Positions 55,993 through 63,837 of a stretch of 64,000 bases of DNA are shown here, in pieces; within the stretch, counting starts at the first letter, position 1, and every line of letters begins with the position of its first letter. The notes beneath the pieces were generated by a model. That model did no database searches. It was given only the letters and a program-made list of their open reading frames with translations, and had not been told where the DNA came from. Source of the stretch: Burkholderiales bacterium (GTDB lineage: Bacteria > Pseudomonadota > Gammaproteobacteria > Burkholderiales > Thiobacteraceae); contig JAIMAL010000006.1 in the NCBI GenBank assembly GCA_023511995.1, forward strand, positions 1 to 64,000, in the 5' to 3' direction. The translations under genes were made by a program, and so were the position numbers.

Positions 55993-56968
55993 ACGCTTGA
56001 TCCTTCTTTTGGTTTCCGGGGTGCTCTTGGTTACCGGCTGGCTGGCCTGGTTTGCGGTCTCCCGCCTGCCCCTGCCGCAGACGCCCTTCGCCTTCGAGCT
56101 TACCCCGGGCAGCAGCCTCAGAAGCGTGGCGCGACAGCTCACGGCAGCGGGGCTTTTGCGGGAGCCGTGGAGCTTCATCACCCTGGTGCGGCTAACGGGT
56201 CGGGCCACCGACCTCAAGGCGGGAAACTATCTCCTGGAGCAGCCGCCCACGGGTCTTGAGCTCTACCGCATGCTCACCCGTGGTGAGGTGCAGGTGGCCG
56301 AAATCCGCTTCATCGAGGGCTGGACCTTCCGTCAGGTGCGCGAGGCGCTGGATGCCCATCCGGCACTGCGCCATGAAACCAAAGGGCTTTCCGAGCAGGA
56401 AATCCTGCGCCGCCTGGGCATCGACTCCCCCCATCCGGAGGGTCTGTTTTTTCCCGACACCTACTACTTCGGCGCCGGGGTGAGTGACCTTTCCATCCTG
56501 CGCCGTGCCCACGCCCTGCTGGAACACCACCTCGCCCGGGAATGGGAGGGGCGGCAGTCGGGGCTACCCTACCGCAGCCCCTACGAAGCCCTCATCATGG
56601 CCTCCATCGTGGAAAAGGAAACCGGCGTGGCGGAGGAGCGGCCCCTCATTGCCGGCGTCTTCGTCAACCGGCTGCGCCTCAACATGCGCCTGCAGACCGA
56701 CCCCACCGTCATCTATGGCCTGGGCGAGGCCTTCGATGGCAACCTGCGGCGGCGACACCTGGAAACCGACGGGCCTTACAATACCTACCTGCGACCGGGT
56801 CTGCCGCCCACTCCCATTGCCATGCCGGGGCTGGCGGCCATCCGCGCCGCACTCCATCCCGCCCCCACACGCGCCCTCTATTTCGTGAGCCGGGGCGATG
56901 GCACCCACGCCTTTTCGGAGACCCTGACGGAACACAACCGGGCGGTGGCCCGTTACCAACTGAGGTGA
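55985..56968 (+). CDS. mltG: Endolytic transglycosylase MltG
   Basis: MltG cuts nascent peptidoglycan and may set glycan length. The 327-residue protein has one N-terminal membrane helix ([19 protein letters not shown]) and the YceG domain with E210 in [28 protein letters not shown] and [13 protein letters not shown]. It lies between pabC and tmk as in E. coli (yceG). The start overlaps the pabC stop. Confidence 0.94.
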
Positions 56969-57579: not shown

Positions 57580-57612
57580 GCGCCGGATGGCCCTTGGCAG
57601 GTGACTTTCACC

Positions 57613-58602
57613 ATGAGCCTTTACCCCTGGCAGATCCCCGTCTGGCAGCGGCTCGTCGCAAAGCGACCGCGGCTGCCCCACGCCCTGCTGCTCCATGGAC
57701 GGCGGGGCATCGGCAAACGGGCCTTTGCCTTCGAATTCGCCCGCTTTCTCCTCTGCGAGGCGCCCCAGGAGGGGCACGCCTGCGGCCACTGCCGCGCCTG
57801 TCATCTCTTCCGCGTGGGTACCCACCCCGACTTCCGCCTCCTCGAGCCGGAGGAGCGGGAAGGGGAGGGCGAAGTTGGCCGCGGAACCCAGCAGATCGGC
57901 ATCGGCCAGGTGCGGGAGCTTTCGGATTTCGTCACCCTTTCCACCCATCAGCACGGGCCGCGGGTGATCCTCATCCATCCCGCCGAGGCCATGAACGTCG
58001 CGGCCGCCAATGCGCTCCTCAAGACTTTGGAGGAACCCGCCGAAAATACGGTATTCCTGCTGGTGAGCCACCAGCCGCGGCAGCTTCCGCCCACCGTGCT
58101 GAGCCGCTGCCGGGCGGTGGCCCTCCCGTTGCCTGGCCGCGAAGCGGCCCGGGCGTGGCTGGAAGGGCAGGGGGTAGCCGAGGCCGAGCTGTGTCTTGCC
58201 ATCAGCGGCGGGGCGCCCCTCTTGGCCCAAAGCTATGCCGCGGCCGAACGCCTAGAAAGCCGCCGGGCCTTCCTTTCGGCGCTGGCGGAACCTGCCCGCC
58301 TCGACTGGTTGCGGCTGGCGGAAGAGGGGAGCCGGCAGGAGCTGGCGGAGCTCATCGACTGGCTGCAGAAGTGGCTCTATGATCTGCTTGCCGTGCGGCT
58401 GGCCGGCCGGGTCCGTTACAATCCGGATTTCGCCGGCCGCTTGCAGGAACTGGGCGCAGGGGTTAATGTGACTGCTCTGTTGCGCTTTTTGCGGGAGGTG
58501 GCAGGGGTGCGCCGGCACCTTAAGCATCCCCTGAACACCCAGTTGCTCCTGGAAAGTGTTTTTTCCGCCTACCAACGGCTGTTGACGAGGGAAAATGGCT
58601 GA
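57613..58602 (+). CDS. holB: DNA polymerase III subunit delta'
   Basis: HolB is part of the clamp loader. The 329-residue protein has a partial P-loop GRRGIGKRA, the zinc site CGHCRACHLFRVGTHPD, LLKTLEEP and LSRCRAV. ATG 57613 has AGGTGA eight bases upstream; a GTG at 57601 is possible. It overlaps pilZ by eight bases. Confidence 0.92.
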   Translation: MSLYPWQIPVWQRLVAKRPRLPHALLLHGRRGIGKRAFAFEFARFLLCEAPQEGHACGHCRACHLFRVGTHPDFRLLEPEEREGEGEVGRGTQQIGIGQVRELSDFVTLSTHQHGPRVILIHPAEAMNVAAANALLKTLEEPAENTVFLLVSHQPRQLPPTVLSRCRAVALPLPGREAARAWLEGQGVAEAELCLAISGGAPLLAQSYAAAERLESRRAFLSALAEPARLDWLRLAEEGSRQELAELIDWLQKWLYDLLAVRLAGRVRYNPDFAGRLQELGAGVNVTALLRFLREVAGVRRHLKHPLNTQLLLESVFSAYQRLLTRENG

Positions 58603-58960
58603 AACGCAGAACAAACCCGCCACCCGACCCGGGGTGCTGTCCCTCAGCATCAAGGAGAAGTCCGCGCTCTACGCGGCTTATATGCCCTATCTGAAAAACG
58701 GCGGCATCTTCATTCCCACCAACAAGTCCTACAAGCTGGGGGATGAGGTCTTCATGCTGCTCACCCTCATGAACGACCCTAACAAGATTCCCGTTGCCGG
58801 CCGCGTGGTGTGGATTACCCCCGCCGGCGCCCAAGGGGGCAAGACCCAGGGCATCGGCGTCGAATTCGCCGCCAACGAAAGCGGCACCGCCGCCCGCAAC
58901 AAGATCGAGGGCCTGCTTGGCGGCTCGCTGAAATCGACGCGCCCCACCCACACCATGTGA
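58595..58960 (+). CDS. pilZ: PilZ-domain protein, type IV pilus type
   Basis: The 121-residue protein is a compact PilZ domain: LSLSIKEKSALYAAYMPYL, NGGIFIPTNKSYKLGDEV and KTQGIGVEFA. Like the PilZ needed for type IV pilus assembly, it lacks the RxxxR motif that binds c-di-GMP. The place between holB and tatD is the same as in Pseudomonas. It overlaps holB by eight bases. Confidence 0.9.
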   Translation: MAETQNKPATRPGVLSLSIKEKSALYAAYMPYLKNGGIFIPTNKSYKLGDEVFMLLTLMNDPNKIPVAGRVVWITPAGAQGGKTQGIGVEFAANESGTAARNKIEGLLGGSLKSTRPTHTM

Positions 58961-58975
58961 GGGGCGCCCCGCGCC

Positions 58976-59752
58976 ATGTTTGTCGATTCCCATTGCCATC
59001 TGGATTTCCCGGAGCTTGCTCCGCACACCGGGGAAATCCTTGCCCGCATGGCGGATAACCAGGTCACCCATGCCCTCTGCGTGGGCGTCAATCTGCCTGA
59101 CTTCTCCAAGGTACGGGCGCTGGCCCAACAGCATGGGAATCTCTTCGCCTCCGTCGGTGTGCATCCGGACTACACCGACACACCGGAACCCACCGTCGCC
59201 GAGCTGGTCAGCCTCGCCTCCGATCCCAAGGTGGTGGCCATTGGCGAAACCGGCCTCGACTATTTTCGCCTCAAGGGCGATCTAGAATGGCAGCGGGCGC
59301 GCTTCCGCACCCACATCCGCGCGGCGCGGGAGGTGGGCAAGCCCCTCATCATCCACAGCCGGGAGGCGGCGGCAGACACCCTGCGCCTGCTGCGGGAAGA
59401 GCGGGCCCAAGAAGTGGGGGGGGTGATGCACTGCTTCACCGAGAGTTGGGAGGTGGCCCAGGCGGCGATGGACCTGGGGTTTTACATCTCCTTTTCCGGC
59501 ATCGTCACCTTCAAGAACGCCACCGCCCTCAGAGAGGTAGCACGCGAGGTCCCCCTGGAGCGCATGCTCATCGAAACCGACTCGCCCTATCTCGCGCCCG
59601 TGCCCTTCCGCGGCAAGACCAACGAACCCGCCTATGTGAAACACGTGGCGGAGGAGATCGCCCGCGTCAAGGGCATCGGGGTGGACGAGGTGGGCGCCGC
59701 CACATGGAGAAATTTCTTTAACTTGTTCCGTCAAGCCTCTGTTGCACAATAG
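58976..59752 (+). CDS. tatD: TatD-family deoxyribonuclease
   Basis: The 258-residue metal-dependent hydrolase has MFVDSHCHLDFPE (HxH), AIGETGLDYF, PLIIHSREA, GGVMHCFTE and LIETDSPYLAPVPFRGK. TatD proteins process DNA ends or abnormal tRNA. It follows pilZ and its last nine bases overlap the start of the ankyrin gene. Confidence 0.94.
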   Translation: MFVDSHCHLDFPELAPHTGEILARMADNQVTHALCVGVNLPDFSKVRALAQQHGNLFASVGVHPDYTDTPEPTVAELVSLASDPKVVAIGETGLDYFRLKGDLEWQRARFRTHIRAAREVGKPLIIHSREAAADTLRLLREERAQEVGGVMHCFTESWEVAQAAMDLGFYISFSGIVTFKNATALREVAREVPLERMLIETDSPYLAPVPFRGKTNEPAYVKHVAEEIARVKGIGVDEVGAATWRNFFNLFRQASVAQ

Positions 59753-60404
59753 ACTTTTTCAGGCGTTCCTCATTGCCGGCCTGGCCCTTTCCCCCTCCGC
59801 CCGCGCCGGTGACATCCGCGACGACATCGTCCAGGCCATCCAGATCGACGACGCGGGGGAAGTCCGGACGCAACTGGCCCGGGGCGCGGACGTCAACCTG
59901 AGCGATGAGGCGGGCAACACGTTGCTCATGCGGGCAGCACGGGAAGGAAGCCTCGCCTCGGTGCGGGTGCTCCTTGCAGCCGGCGCCCGCGTCCACCAGA
60001 CCAACGCCTTTGGCGACACCGCGCTGCACCTCGCCGCCTGGGGCGGTGATGCCCGCATCGTGCGGCTCCTATTGGACCGGGGGGCTTCGGTCGCGCCCAA
60101 TCACCGCGGCTGGACACCGCTCATGTACGCAGCACTGGCCGGGCACGAGGAAGTCGTGGCCATGCTCCTCGAGGCCGCCTCACCGGTCAATACCGCCAAC
60201 CGGTCCGGCCTCACCGCGCTCATGCTGGCGGCGATGAAGGGGCATGAAACCATCGTCCGGCGTCTGCTTGCCGCCGGTGCCGATCCCCGGGCGCAGGACG
60301 TGACGGGCAAGACGGCGCGGGAACTGGCCTTGGAAAATGGCAACACCGATGTGGCCGCGATCGTTGCCGCTGCCCAGCAAGCGGCAGCCAGGGCGAGCCC
60401 CTGA
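59742..60404 (+). CDS. Exported ankyrin-repeat protein
   Basis: The 220-residue protein has a signal peptide (FQAFLIAGLALSPSARA) and about five ankyrin repeats, each with a TPL/TAL box (GNTLLMRAAREG, GDTALHLAAWGG, GWTPLMYAALAG, GLTALMLAAMKG, GKTARELALENG). Such periplasmic proteins bind other proteins, for example catalases or lytic enzymes; the partner here is unknown. The start is TTG, overlapping tatD; no ATG gives the signal peptide. Confidence 0.85.
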   Translation: MHNRLFQAFLIAGLALSPSARAGDIRDDIVQAIQIDDAGEVRTQLARGADVNLSDEAGNTLLMRAAREGSLASVRVLLAAGARVHQTNAFGDTALHLAAWGGDARIVRLLLDRGASVAPNHRGWTPLMYAALAGHEEVVAMLLEAASPVNTANRSGLTALMLAAMKGHETIVRRLLAAGADPRAQDVTGKTARELALENGNTDVAAIVAAAQQAAARASP

Positions 60405-60448
60405 GGACGTCACGCAAGGGCCAGCCAGCTCAACCCCGGGAAAGCATT

Positions 60449-60476
60449 CCTTCGCATAATGTGTATTATGTCAAAT
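60449..60476. other. dif site for XerCD chromosome-dimer resolution
   Basis: The 28-bp sequence reads CCTTCGCATAA, TGTGTA, TTATGTCAAAT (left arm, centre, right arm). The E. coli dif arms are GGTGCGCATAA, TGTATA, TTATGTTAAAT, so 23 of 28 positions agree, including 10 of 11 in the XerD arm. It lies in a gene-free gap where plus-strand genes from the left and minus-strand genes from the right converge. FtsK-loading octamers GGGNAGGG were seen on the plus strand to the left (51635, 55439, 57862, 58165) and on the minus strand to the right (61675, 62489); this scan was not exhaustive. Confidence 0.85.
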
Positions 60477-60734
60477 TAGTTGGGATTGTGGTTCAGGGCG
60501 CCGCGGGCGTCTTTCGGCCCCCCACGCTCCCGCTCTGTTTCCCCCACCAGCCCGCGGCCCGGGCGAAACGATTTGGGGGCACGGGGATCCGGCCAAGACC
60601 CCAGGCTTGCCGCACTGTCCGGAAACGTCGCGCGTGTGGTTGGTTCCCGCACGGAAGACGAACGCGGGCGTGGTAGTCCCCTCGCCGAGGGCGGGCTGTC
60701 GTGGGGACGAGGAAACGCTGAGTTGGGAAAACCC
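60477..60734. other. Gap right of dif with no clear gene
   Basis: About 260 bases with no convincing coding region. Several reading frames are open but Arg/Gly/Pro-biased, as expected for random GC-rich DNA. I looked for RNase P RNA, tmRNA and 6S RNA hallmarks and saw none. Confidence 0.4.
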
Positions 60735-60944
60735 TCACCCCACCGGCGTGGGATCGGAACGGGTGAGCGCGGAAAAGAGGCGCTCCAGCAGCGCATCGAC
60801 GGCTGCCGCATCCTCGGCAAAACCCCGCGCCCCCGCACCGGCCCGCGCCCCTTCACAGGCCGCGTTGAGGGCGGCCAGGCGCGCCAGGAACAGGCGCTCT
60901 TCGGCGGTAAGCGGCCCTTGGGGAGAAACGTTCAAAGCAGGCAT
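60735..60944 (-). CDS. Small hypothetical protein
   Basis: The frame encodes about 69 residues from an ATG at 60944 (a GTG two codons earlier is possible). The composition is helical and protein-like (PLTAEERLFLARLAALNAACEGA, split as PLTAEERLFLARL and AALNAACEGA), unlike the other frames. I do not recognise it, and no good ribosome binding site is seen. Confidence 0.35.
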   Translation of the reverse strand: MPALNVSPQGPLTAEERLFLARLAALNAACEGARAGAGARGFAEDAAAVDALLERLFSALTRSDPTPVG

Positions 60945-61019
60945 GGTCACAGGATCCCGGTTTGCCTGCAGTAATCGGCAACGACGGCGGAAACTTTAGC
61001 GGCGACGCCGCTGGACAAG

Positions 61020-61057
61020 AAAAAGGGAGAATCCGGGGAAAAAGGGAGAATCCGGGG
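61020..61057. repeat. Perfect tandem duplication of a 19-bp unit downstream of tRNA-Leu
   Basis: The unit AAAAAGGGAGAATCCGGGG occurs twice in direct succession (61020-61038 and 61039-61057). On the minus strand each copy ends in five T after a short GGA/TCC hairpin, so the pair may act as the transcription end of the tRNA-Cys/tRNA-Leu unit. Confidence 0.8.
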
Positions 61058-61074
61058 GGCTCAAGCCGGCGAAG

Positions 61075-61162
61075 TGGTGCCCGGAGCCGGACTCGAACCG
61101 GCACGGGCTTTTGGCCCGAGGGATTTTAAGTCCCTTGTGTCTACCTGTTCCACCACCCGGGC
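61075..61162 (-). tRNA. tRNA-Leu (TAA)
   Basis: The 88-base gene has acceptor GCCCGGG/TCCGGGC, anticodon loop CTTAAAA (anticodon TAA), a long variable arm (CTCGGGC..GCCCGTG) as in leucine tRNAs, T-loop GGTTCGAGTCC and an encoded CCA. It is the last of three tRNAs downstream of pgsA, in the order of E. coli glyW-cysT-leuZ. Confidence 0.97.
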
Positions 61163-61167
61163 GGATG

Positions 61168-61241
61168 TGGAGGCGGGGGTCGGAATCGAACCGGCGTCCA
61201 CGGCTTTGCAGGCCGCTGCATAACCACTCTGCCACCCCGCC
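61168..61241 (-). tRNA. tRNA-Cys (GCA)
   Basis: The 74-base gene has acceptor GGCGGGG/CCCCGCC, anticodon loop CTGCAAA (anticodon GCA), discriminator T as expected for cysteine, and an encoded CCA. Five bases separate it from tRNA-Leu, so the two are surely cotranscribed. Confidence 0.97.
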
Positions 61242-61275
61242 CTGTGGAACCCACGGATTGCGAAACTGTGCAGAT

Positions 61276-61294
61276 GGGCGCCAGACAGGCGCCC
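61276..61294. repeat. 7-bp inverted repeat upstream of tRNA-Cys
   Basis: GGGCGCC and GGCGCCC pair perfectly around five bases (AGACA). It lies between the tRNA-Gly terminator and tRNA-Cys, so it could be a processing hairpin or an operator. No T-run follows. Confidence 0.5.
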
Positions 61295-61303
61295 GGCAAA
61301 ACT

Positions 61304-61339
61304 AAAAAGGGAAAACGAAGTACTCGCCTTCGCTTTCCC
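61304..61339 (-). terminator. Rho-independent terminator after tRNA-Gly
   Basis: On the minus strand GGGAAAGCGAAG and CTTCGTTTTCCC form a 12-bp stem (one G:T) around seven bases, followed by five T. It starts seven bases beyond the tRNA-Gly CCA end. Confidence 0.9.
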
Positions 61340-61345
61340 CGGATT

Positions 61346-61421
61346 TGGAGCGGGAAACGAGTCTCGAACTCGCGACCTCAACCTTGGCAAGGTTGCGCTC
61401 TACCAGCTGAGCTATTCCCGC
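61346..61421 (-). tRNA. tRNA-Gly (GCC)
   Basis: The 76-base gene has acceptor GCGGGAA/TTCCCGC, anticodon loop TTGCCAA (anticodon GCC), T-loop AGTTCGAGACT and an encoded CCA. It has its own promoter (in the 3' end of pgsA) and its own terminator. Confidence 0.97.
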
Positions 61422-61436
61422 CTGACGAGAGCCGCC

Positions 61437-61464
61437 ATTTTACCCAAGCGCGGCGCGATGTCAA
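61437..61464 (-). promoter_or_regulatory. Sigma-70 promoter of tRNA-Gly
   Basis: On the minus strand TTGACA and TAAAAT are separated by 16 bases. The -35 box lies over the pgsA stop codon. A GC-rich discriminator (GGCGGC) follows, typical of stable-RNA promoters. Confidence 0.88.
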
Positions 61465-62036
61465 CCAACCCCCCCGCCACGCGCCGAGCGCACCGCCTGC
61501 ATCATGTAGTAGATCATGGACAGGATGGTGAGAAGGGCCGCGAGATAAATGAGCCAGGTGCCCATCTCGCGGATGGGCAGTCCTGCCACCGGCTCCCCAT
61601 AGAGGAGCAGCAGGATGGCCACCATCTGGGAGGCGGTCTTGATCTTGCCAATGAAGGCCACCGCCACGCTCCTGCCCTGCCCCACCCCCGCCATCCACTC
61701 GCGCAGCGCCGAAATGGCGATCTCCCGCCCGATGATGATGAGGGCGATGACGCCTTCGACCCGTCCCAGCTCCAGCAGCATGATGAGCGCCGCGGCGACC
61801 ATCAGCTTGTCCGCCACCGGATCAAGGAAGGCGCCGAAGGGGGAAGTCTGGTTGAGCGCCCGGGCGAGGTAGCCATCCAGCCAGTCGGTGACGGCTGCGG
61901 CAGCGAAGAGGGCGGCGGCGGTCATGTTGAGGAGGTGGGCGTCAAGCCACCCTTCCGGTAGGTGGAAAAGCAGCACGAAAACCGGAATGAGGACGATGCG
62001 AAGCCAGGTGAGGAGGTTGGGCAGATTGAGCGGCAT
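61461..62036 (-). CDS. pgsA: CDP-diacylglycerol-glycerol-3-phosphate 3-phosphatidyltransferase
   Basis: PgsA makes phosphatidylglycerol phosphate. The 191-residue membrane protein has the CDP-alcohol motif DWLDGYLARALNQTSPFG followed by AFLDPVADK and several membrane helices. The start MPLNLPNLLTWLRI matches the family; codons upstream overlap uvrC. It follows uvrC closely, as in E. coli. Confidence 0.95.
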   Translation of the reverse strand: MPLNLPNLLTWLRIVLIPVFVLLFHLPEGWLDAHLLNMTAAALFAAAAVTDWLDGYLARALNQTSPFGAFLDPVADKLMVAAALIMLLELGRVEGVIALIIIGREIAISALREWMAGVGQGRSVAVAFIGKIKTASQMVAILLLLYGEPVAGLPIREMGTWLIYLAALLTILSMIYYMMQAVRSARGGGVG

Positions 62037-62040
62037 GGGA

Positions 62041-63837
62041 TCAGTGAAAAGAGGCGTAGATTTTTTCCGCCAGGGTGCGGCTGATGCCCTCCACCTTGGC
62101 CAGCTCGTCAATGCTGGCATCCCGCAGGCCCTTCAGCCCGCCGAAACGGCGCAAAAGCATCTGTCGCCGCTTGGGGCCCACGCCCGGGATTTCGTCCAGC
62201 AGGGAATGGGTGCGCGCCTTGCCCCGGCGCGCGCGGTGGCCGGTGATGGCGAAACGGTGGGCTTCGTCGCGGATTTGCTGGATGAGATGCAGGCCCGGAT
62301 GGTCAGTGGGTAGACGCAGCGGTTCCCTTCTGTCACCAAAGACCAGTTGCTCGAGCCCGGGCTTGCGTCCCGGGCCCTTGGCCACGCCCACCACTTCCAC
62401 CTCGCCCACCCCTAGCTCGGCGAGCACGCTGCGCGCCACGGCCACCTGGCCACGGCCGCCATCGATGAGGAGCAGGTCGGGCAGCTTCCCCTCCCCTGCC
62501 GCCAGCCGGCGGTAGCGGCGGGTGAGGGCTTGCCGCATCGCGCCGTAATCGTCGCCCGCCACCCCCGGCTCGATGTTGAAACGGCGGTATTCCGCGGGTC
62601 TCAGGGCGAAGTCGTCATAGACCACACAGGCGGCGACGGTGGCCTCGCCGAGGGTGTGGGAGATGTCGAAGCACTCGATGCGGCGCAGGCTTTCGGGCAG
62701 TCCCAGCGCCTCCAGCAAGGCGGCGAGGCGGGCCTCTTGGGTGCTTTGCTGGGCAAGCCGCTGCCGGATGGCAAGCAGCGCATTCTTCGCCGCCATCTCC
62801 AGCCACACCCGGCGCTCACCGGTCACACGGTTGACGATCTGCACCCGATGTCCGCTGGTGGCACTCAAGAGTTCGCCGAGCTCCGCCCGGTCGATGTCGG
62901 TGTTGACCAGGATGAGGGGGGGAGCCGGCTGTTCCCCGTAATGCTGGGCGAGGAAAGCTTCCAGGATGCGGGCCGGGTCGTGCCCTTCCGCATGCTGGGG
63001 GAAGATGGCCTTGTCCCCCAGGTGCCGGCCGGCGCGGATCATGGTCAGATTGACACAGGCAAGCCCCGCCTCCACCGCCACGGCCACCACATCCGCGTTT
63101 ACCTGCCGCCCGCTTTCCACGAACTGGCGCTCCTGCACCGCCCGCAGGGCCTTGATCCGGTCCCGGTAGAAGGCCGCCTCCTCATAGGCCTGGGCTTCCG
63201 AGGCGGCCAGCATGGCCTGGGTCAGTTCGTCGAGGACGTGCTGCTCCCGCCCCAGGAGAAAGGCGCTGGCCCGTTCCACCTCTCGGGCGTAGTCGGCCTC
63301 GCTCACCGCCCCCACGCAGGGTGCGGTGCAGCGTTGGATCTGGTGCAAAAGGCAGGGACGGGAACGGTGGCTGAACACCCCATCCTCGCAGGTGCGCAGG
63401 CGGAAGACTTTCTGCAAAAGCTGGATGCTTTCCCGCACCGCATGGGCGTTGGGATAGGGGCCGAAATAGCGGTCGCCCTTTTTCTGCGGTCCCCGATGCA
63501 AGGCCAGGCGGGGGAAGGCATGACCGGTGAGGACAATGTAGGGATAGGACTTGTCGTCGCGGAAGAGAATGTTGTAGCGGGGGGCCAGGCCCTTGATCAG
63601 ATTGTTTTCCAGGAGCAGGGCCTCGTGCTCGGAGCGGGTGACGGTGATCTCGACGCGCGCCACCTGGGACAGCATGAGCTGGATGCGGGGGGAAAGAACG
63701 GTCTTCTGGAAATAGGACGAGACCCGCTTTTTGAGGTCCCGCGCCTTGCCCACGTAAAGCACGTTCCCGTCCGCCCCCAACATGCGATAGACCCCCGGCA
63801 GATGGGGCAGACCGGCCAGGAAGGTCGTGTCCAACAT
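62041..63837 (-). CDS. uvrC: Excinuclease ABC subunit C
   Basis: UvrC makes both incisions in nucleotide excision repair. The 598-residue protein has the GIY-YIG nuclease (LPGVYRMLGADGNVLYVGKA split: LPGVYRML, VLYVGKARDLKKRV), a UVR domain near residue 200, the UvrC RNase H-like domain (IECFDISHTLGEATVAACVV) and a C-terminal HhH pair (IPGVGPKRRQMLLRRFG, VEGISRTLAEKIY). It is followed four bases later by pgsA. Confidence 0.95.
   Translation of the reverse strand: MLDTTFLAGLPHLPGVYRMLGADGNVLYVGKARDLKKRVSSYFQKTVLSPRIQLMLSQVARVEITVTRSEHEALLLENNLIKGLAPRYNILFRDDKSYPYIVLTGHAFPRLALHRGPQKKGDRYFGPYPNAHAVRESIQLLQKVFRLRTCEDGVFSHRSRPCLLHQIQRCTAPCVGAVSEADYAREVERASAFLLGREQHVLDELTQAMLAASEAQAYEEAAFYRDRIKALRAVQERQFVESGRQVNADVVAVAVEAGLACVNLTMIRAGRHLGDKAIFPQHAEGHDPARILEAFLAQHYGEQPAPPLILVNTDIDRAELGELLSATSGHRVQIVNRVTGERRVWLEMAAKNALLAIRQRLAQQSTQEARLAALLEALGLPESLRRIECFDISHTLGEATVAACVVYDDFALRPAEYRRFNIEPGVAGDDYGAMRQALTRRYRRLAAGEGKLPDLLLIDGGRGQVAVARSVLAELGVGEVEVVGVAKGPGRKPGLEQLVFGDRREPLRLPTDHPGLHLIQQIRDEAHRFAITGHRARRGKARTHSLLDEIPGVGPKRRQMLLRRFGGLKGLRDASIDELAKVEGISRTLAEKIYASFH

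Follow-up and report, generated by a model that had tools for sequence, protein, structure and literature searches.

A probable chromosomal dif site between convergent mltG-tatD and tRNA-pgsA-uvrC clusters in a Burkholderiales bacterium

Gene organization of the locus

The window, the whole stretch of DNA analyzed here, comprises the first 64000 bases of contig C6 (124416 bases) from the draft genome of a Burkholderiales bacterium. Near its right end, two gene clusters face each other across a candidate dif site at 60449–60476, in the arrangement mltG-holB-pilZ-tatD > dif < tRNA-Leu-Cys-Gly-pgsA-uvrC. The left cluster is on the plus strand. It consists of mltG (matched part 56000–56956; TIGR00247 above cut-off), holB (57601–58602; Pfam DNA_pol3_delta2 and DNApol3-delta_C), a gene for a PilZ-domain protein (58595–58960; family match), tatD (58976–59752; Pfam TatD_DNase) and an open reading frame (ORF) for an ankyrin-repeat protein, ank (59742–60404; Pfam Ank families), whose stop codon ends 44 bases before dif. 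A fab cluster, pabB and pabC lie to the left of mltG on the same strand.

The right cluster is on the minus strand. It contains three tRNA genes identified with ARAGORN, tRNA-Leu(taa) at 61075–61162, tRNA-Cys(gca) at 61168–61241 and tRNA-Gly(gcc) at 61346–61421, followed by pgsA (61461–62120, with a predicted start codon; Pfam CDP-OH_P_transf) and uvrC (62041–63837; Pfam UvrC domains, TIGR00194 above cut-off). The names pabB, mltG, holB, pilZ, tatD, ank, pgsA and uvrC rest on family matches, and the fab genes, pabC, accC and oadA were named by reading the ORFs.

The dif site is non-coding and lies between ank and a short minus-strand ORF of about 68 residues (60738–60944), which has no Pfam family. 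ORFs similar to the latter, with 41–60% identity, are found beside dif in three sampled genomes (G001, G003 and G007). Two mechanically predicted ORFs, of 126 residues (60476–60856, minus) and 164 residues (60480–60974, plus), touch or adjoin the right edge of dif. Between ank and the tRNA genes, a search for promoter-like sites found none, and a search for terminators gave one minus-strand match (60780–60794), no more than shuffled sequences give.

Genes on the plus strand run from a DUF177-like ORF (47699/47717) to the end of ank at 60404. The sequence-only reading had described a flip of gene direction at dif. Opposite strands on either side of the site are confirmed, but this holds only locally: immediately to the left of 47.7 kb, accC and oadA lie on the minus strand, and a crude ORF call over the contig gives mixed strands. 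Given the direction of accC and oadA, the strand change is better described as two convergent clusters than as a chromosome-wide rule. Both clusters run toward dif, as leading-strand genes usually do where a replication arm ends.

The dif site and its recombinases

The 28-mer at 60449–60476 on the plus strand, CCTTCGCATAATGTGTATTATGTCAAAT, shares 23 of its 28 bases with Escherichia coli dif. The E. coli reference was checked letter for letter against the minus strand of NC_000913.3. The second-best place in the window scores 17/28, and the best scores in 100 Markov-1 random windows modelled on it range from 15 to 18 of 28. By alignment to E. coli dif and 86 related sites from the loci at hand, the 28-mer divides into an XerC arm, CCTTCGCATAA (60449–60459), a central TGTGTA (60460–60465) and an XerD arm, TTATGTCAAAT (60466–60476), all given on the plus strand; the arms are assigned as is established for dif. 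At 7 of 11 positions, the XerC arm agrees with the XerD arm read as its reverse complement. The only difference from E. coli in the XerD arm is the C at position 24, which is common to 20 of the 86 related sites; the G at position 15 is common to 16 of them. Both of these departures from the E. coli sequence are thus frequent in relatives.

The G+C content of dif is 32%, compared to 62–67% in 5-kb windows of the contig. A chance resemblance within AT-rich spacer DNA might be considered, and the 40 bases from 60460, with 40% G+C, are the lowest among those listed. However, the random windows do not exceed 18/28, and controls with the reversed pattern gave zero hits in every genome searched, which refutes this explanation; we give it practically no weight.

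The draft genome (2507758 bases, 44 contigs) contains a single copy of dif at up to 3 mismatches. Its XerD scores 381.0 bits against a cut-off of 329.6 and its XerC 360.6 bits against 335.15, and it also encodes one FtsK with a gamma domain, for which FtsK_gamma scores above its cut-off. XerC, XerD and FtsK are the established partners of dif. The original proposal of a dif at 60449–60476, with an XerD arm nearly identical to that of E. coli, is borne out, and several equal copies, which would have spoken against it, are excluded for the 2.51 Mb draft. Carnoy and Roten 2009 (PMC2731167) describe proteobacterial dif sites that are likewise intergenic, low in G+C, conserved in the XerD arm and located near the terminus.

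Octamer polarity and the replication terminus

The octamer GGGNAGGG, a motif known from E. coli and presumably the KOPS signal read by FtsK, changes its orientation at dif. To the left of the site on contig C6, it occurs 17 times on the plus strand and 4 times on the minus strand. To the right, the counts are 0 plus and 2 minus inside the window, and 6 plus and 16 minus to the end of the contig. In all, 33 of the 43 octamers on the contig point toward dif (permutation p 0.00045 at the site), and an equally good convergent split anywhere on the contig has a permutation p of 0.0017. The cumulative curve reaches its maximum in the interval from 58165 to 61675, the positions of the two octamers that bracket dif. 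The polarity on the right comes from the first 20 kb; beyond 80 kb, the counts are 5 plus and 8 minus. Ranked by z-score among 7860 octamers of the same form with at least 10 places, GGGNAGGG is 28th, so that its polarity on contig C6 is strong but not unique. The looser motif GNGNAGGG shows a similar tendency, with only 102 of 170 copies facing dif. On contig C1, a seeming run of 48 same-strand octamers was discarded after direct counts gave 48 plus and 15 minus in 110–283 kb.

GC skew is near zero on the 124 kb contig (left +0.002, right −0.013), too weak to locate a terminus, with no extremum at dif; the genome is in 44 contigs, and its dnaA gene is on a different one, C13. Among the single-contig relatives with a dif hit in the sample of the order, the distance from dif to dnaA is 0.38–0.50 of the chromosome in 15 of 16. 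The exception, G096 (a single contig of 1.6 Mb), has a dif-like site at C1:311867, and its dnaA match is only some 37 kb away.

The switch in octamer polarity, the position of dif in 15 of these 16 relatives and the flanking genes that face dif in relatives together place the terminus here. This agrees with the sequence-only reading, in which the octamers flank and point to dif and the window lies at the terminus.

We conclude, with a probability of roughly 0.93, that 60449–60476 is the chromosomal dif of the source bacterium, where XerCD and FtsK would resolve chromosome dimers at the terminus, between two convergent gene clusters. The alternative that the site is an attachment-site copy carried by a dif-using phage or mobile element, rather than the chromosome's own dif, has a precedent in that about a quarter of dif sites lie beside mobility genes, according to Carnoy and Roten (PMC2731167). 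Such an origin is very improbable for this site, which is present in a single copy in the draft, has core genes on both flanks and is the point on which the octamers converge. In addition, it has the same position in the one other sampled genome of the genus (G001), where the searched genes keep their order on both sides of dif.

By analogy with the known system, a chromosomal dif would act as follows. Sister chromosomes that cross over an odd number of times would end up as a dimer that needs to be split. Septal FtsK would follow DNA oriented by GGGNAGGG to dif and activate XerD. We infer that XerD, bound at 60466–60476, and XerC, bound at 60449–60459, would then swap strands across the 6-base center and split the dimer. 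In this scheme, dif would sit where both replication arms end, and each of the two flanking clusters would run in the direction of its fork toward dif. The site itself is ordinary, and dif is textbook biology. Its gene neighborhood is an interesting by-product of the analysis that deserves to be followed up.

Distance of mltG and uvrC from dif across genomes

To measure how often the neighborhood recurs, hits for dif and mltG were taken from separate searches of the same samples, so that loci were not chosen by their neighbors; pairs on different contigs were counted as misses. In the order of the source bacterium, dif was hit in 118 of 200 genomes. mltG was listed for 98 of these, and the 20 for which it was not listed or was absent were dropped, although four of them (G001, G014, G018 and G020) have tatD near dif. 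Outside the order, dif was hit in 125 genomes, with mltG listed for 107 and 18 dropped.

Of the 98 genomes in the order, 26 have mltG no more than 15 kb from dif, where 1.0 would be expected for random places in 3 Mb, as do 29 of the 107 outside it, where 1.1 would be expected; the genomes counted are neither independent nor equally long. For the other 72 genomes in the order, mltG is 15–100 kb away in 13, farther on the same contig in 17 and on another contig in 42. The corresponding numbers for the other 78 outside the order are 17, 6 and 55. The 55 near genomes represent 38 families, 13 in the order and 25 outside, as counted from the genome labels.

In all 55 near genomes, mltG points at dif, and in 50 of them it shares the strand of dif in the direction given here. 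Where mltG is more than 100 kb away in the order, it points at dif in 14 of 17 genomes and away in 3, and no strand preference is left, with the strand the same in 8 and opposite in 9.

Of the 101 genomes of the order with a listed uvrC, 13 have it no more than 15 kb from dif. Among the uvrC loci of named genomes (the best 80 of 577), the sequence extends at least 9 kb downstream of the gene in 35, and a dif-like site is present in 3 of the 35: Dechloromonas sp. UBA6271, a Rhodocyclales MAG and Betaproteobacteria UBA5582. Two of the three also have the tatD operon. Thus, uvrC is near dif in only a minority of genomes. An ankyrin match is present at uvrC locus L104, where dif is absent.

We also read the surroundings of mltG in genomes that lack a strict dif match, 14 from the order and 6 from outside it; these 20 were hand-picked from the mltG listings and are not a random sample. 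A dif-like site was seen in one of them, G073 (L272), 18 bases after the tatD match; four of the stretches (L259, L274, L275 and L276) span only 3.7–5.1 kb before a contig end, beyond which a dif would be invisible.

Individual loci in relatives

In a first sample of relatives, tatD lies within 1.5 kb of dif in 14 of 29 dif loci, the source's own included. We then read the loci of 40 of the 55 near genomes, 26 of the 29 outside the order and 14 of the 26 inside. holB was matched in all 40 and tatD in 34. The tatD match ends just 28–55 bases before dif at L224, L236, L238, L243 and L257.

In 10 of the 14 loci in the order, the neighbor of tatD toward dif is an ank gene, compared to none of the 26 outside it. 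The suggestion that the tRNA cluster and the ankyrin gene are close to the terminus holds for this locus, and for ank it extends to these relatives.

pgsA and uvrC, together with tRNA genes, are found across dif in 6 of the 40 loci, in stretches that reach at most about 14 kb beyond dif. Four of the six are outside the order (L228, L231, L236 and L237) and two inside (L253 and L258). No tRNA-Leu was seen at L253. At L258 (G098 C1:428000–447900), both flanks are in place and dif is reversed relative to them. In G004 and G005, two genomes of the same family, uvrC-pgsA-tRNA has pabB as its neighbor and is separated from dif by the operon, and the tatD-ank-dif segment is intact. At L248 and L249 (G148 and G029), ank and tatD are about 7–8 kb from dif and on the opposite strand, and roughly 7 kb of other DNA separates them from it.

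Comparison with E. coli K-12

The dif system of the source bacterium resembles that of E. coli in the 28-base layout of 11+6+11, in encoding both recombinases and the FtsK gamma domain, and in the octamers that run toward the site. The two dif sequences differ at 5 of 28 bases.

The same two clusters converge across dif in K-12 MG1655, where fabD-fabG-acpP-fabF-pabC-mltG-tmk-holB-ycfH is on the plus strand, with ycfH (the tatD homologue) ending at 1157574, and leuZ-cysT-glyW-pgsA-uvrC is on the minus strand, with leuZ starting at 1991815. dif starts at 1590750 on the minus strand. The end of ycfH is 433 kb away and leuZ 401 kb, which puts dif near the middle of a gap of 834 kb, but flipped relative to these two flanks. 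In the source genome, by contrast, no more than 0.8 kb separates dif from tatD on one side and from tRNA-Leu on the other.

Origin of the neighborhood

A specific gene neighborhood is kept by dif in about a quarter of the sampled genomes across a class; the class meant is probably the Gammaproteobacteria as defined in GTDB, which include the Betaproteobacteria. The neighborhood is likely to be ancestral: the arrangement of tatD operon, dif, tRNA-Leu-Cys-Gly, pgsA and uvrC would probably be old and inherited along with dif.

How it has been maintained may be explained in two ways. One is the slow decay of an old gene order at the terminus, with no selection binding dif to the operons, to which we would give even odds. 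The mltG-dif distances outside the order thin out steadily, with 29 genomes within 15 kb, 9 at 15–30 kb, 4 at 30–50 kb and 4 at 50–100 kb, as decay would produce, although broken contigs favor short distances. An inversion that spans both dif and the operon would leave them together. Furthermore, the direction of dif can vary, as it is flipped relative to its flanks in both G098 and E. coli. On the other hand, the persistence of two separately transcribed neighbors in 38 families seems long for drift, as far as one can expect. The rival to slow decay is that selection, for example through octamer polarity, maintains the neighborhood, which is a guess.

On a broader and more tentative reconstruction, to which we lean somewhat less than halfway, the ancestor of the class had one fixed terminus, tatD operon > dif < tRNA-Leu-Cys-Gly-pgsA-uvrC, which would be nearly intact here. 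The large terminus of E. coli, the 834 kb between ycfH and leuZ, would be DNA gained between two clusters that were once adjacent. Both would mark the ends of the replichores, where octamer polarity would hold them. If the neighborhood is ancestral, dif and the terminus could be traced by gene order in addition to the 28-base motif, and the growth of the terminus, as in E. coli, could be measured against two landmarks.

A statement in Carnoy and Roten 2009 (PMC2731167) is that dif has 'no apparent specific genetic environment', unlike the specific environment found here and in many relatives; an ancestral neighborhood would require this statement to be revised. The main text of Kono and others 2011 (PMC3025954) contains none of the terms 'synten', 'neighbor', 'adjacent' and 'flank'. 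In a paper on Legionella dif (PMC9765430), the flanking genes vary. The neighborhood of dif with tatD or uvrC is absent from the titles and abstract openings of the papers listed for dif with these genes or with gene order, a body that leaves most subscription literature outside, and it may already be in print.

dif-like sites at contig ends and in pairs

In several drafts, contigs start close to dif. Starts within about 170 bases of the site occur in G027 (C5:166 and C11:3), G110 (C19:1), G378 (C35:1), G237 (C26:1), G282 (C2:35), G327 (C9:86), G151 (C158:116) and G133 (C151:139), as would be expected if assemblies broke at dif. The cause could be elements integrated at the site in a fraction of the population. 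Two genomes carry pairs of dif-like sites in opposite directions, 29 kb apart in G249 (C1:158083 and 187405) and 2.4 kb apart in G354 (C120:1238 and 3627), each pair possibly marking a mobile element that uses dif.
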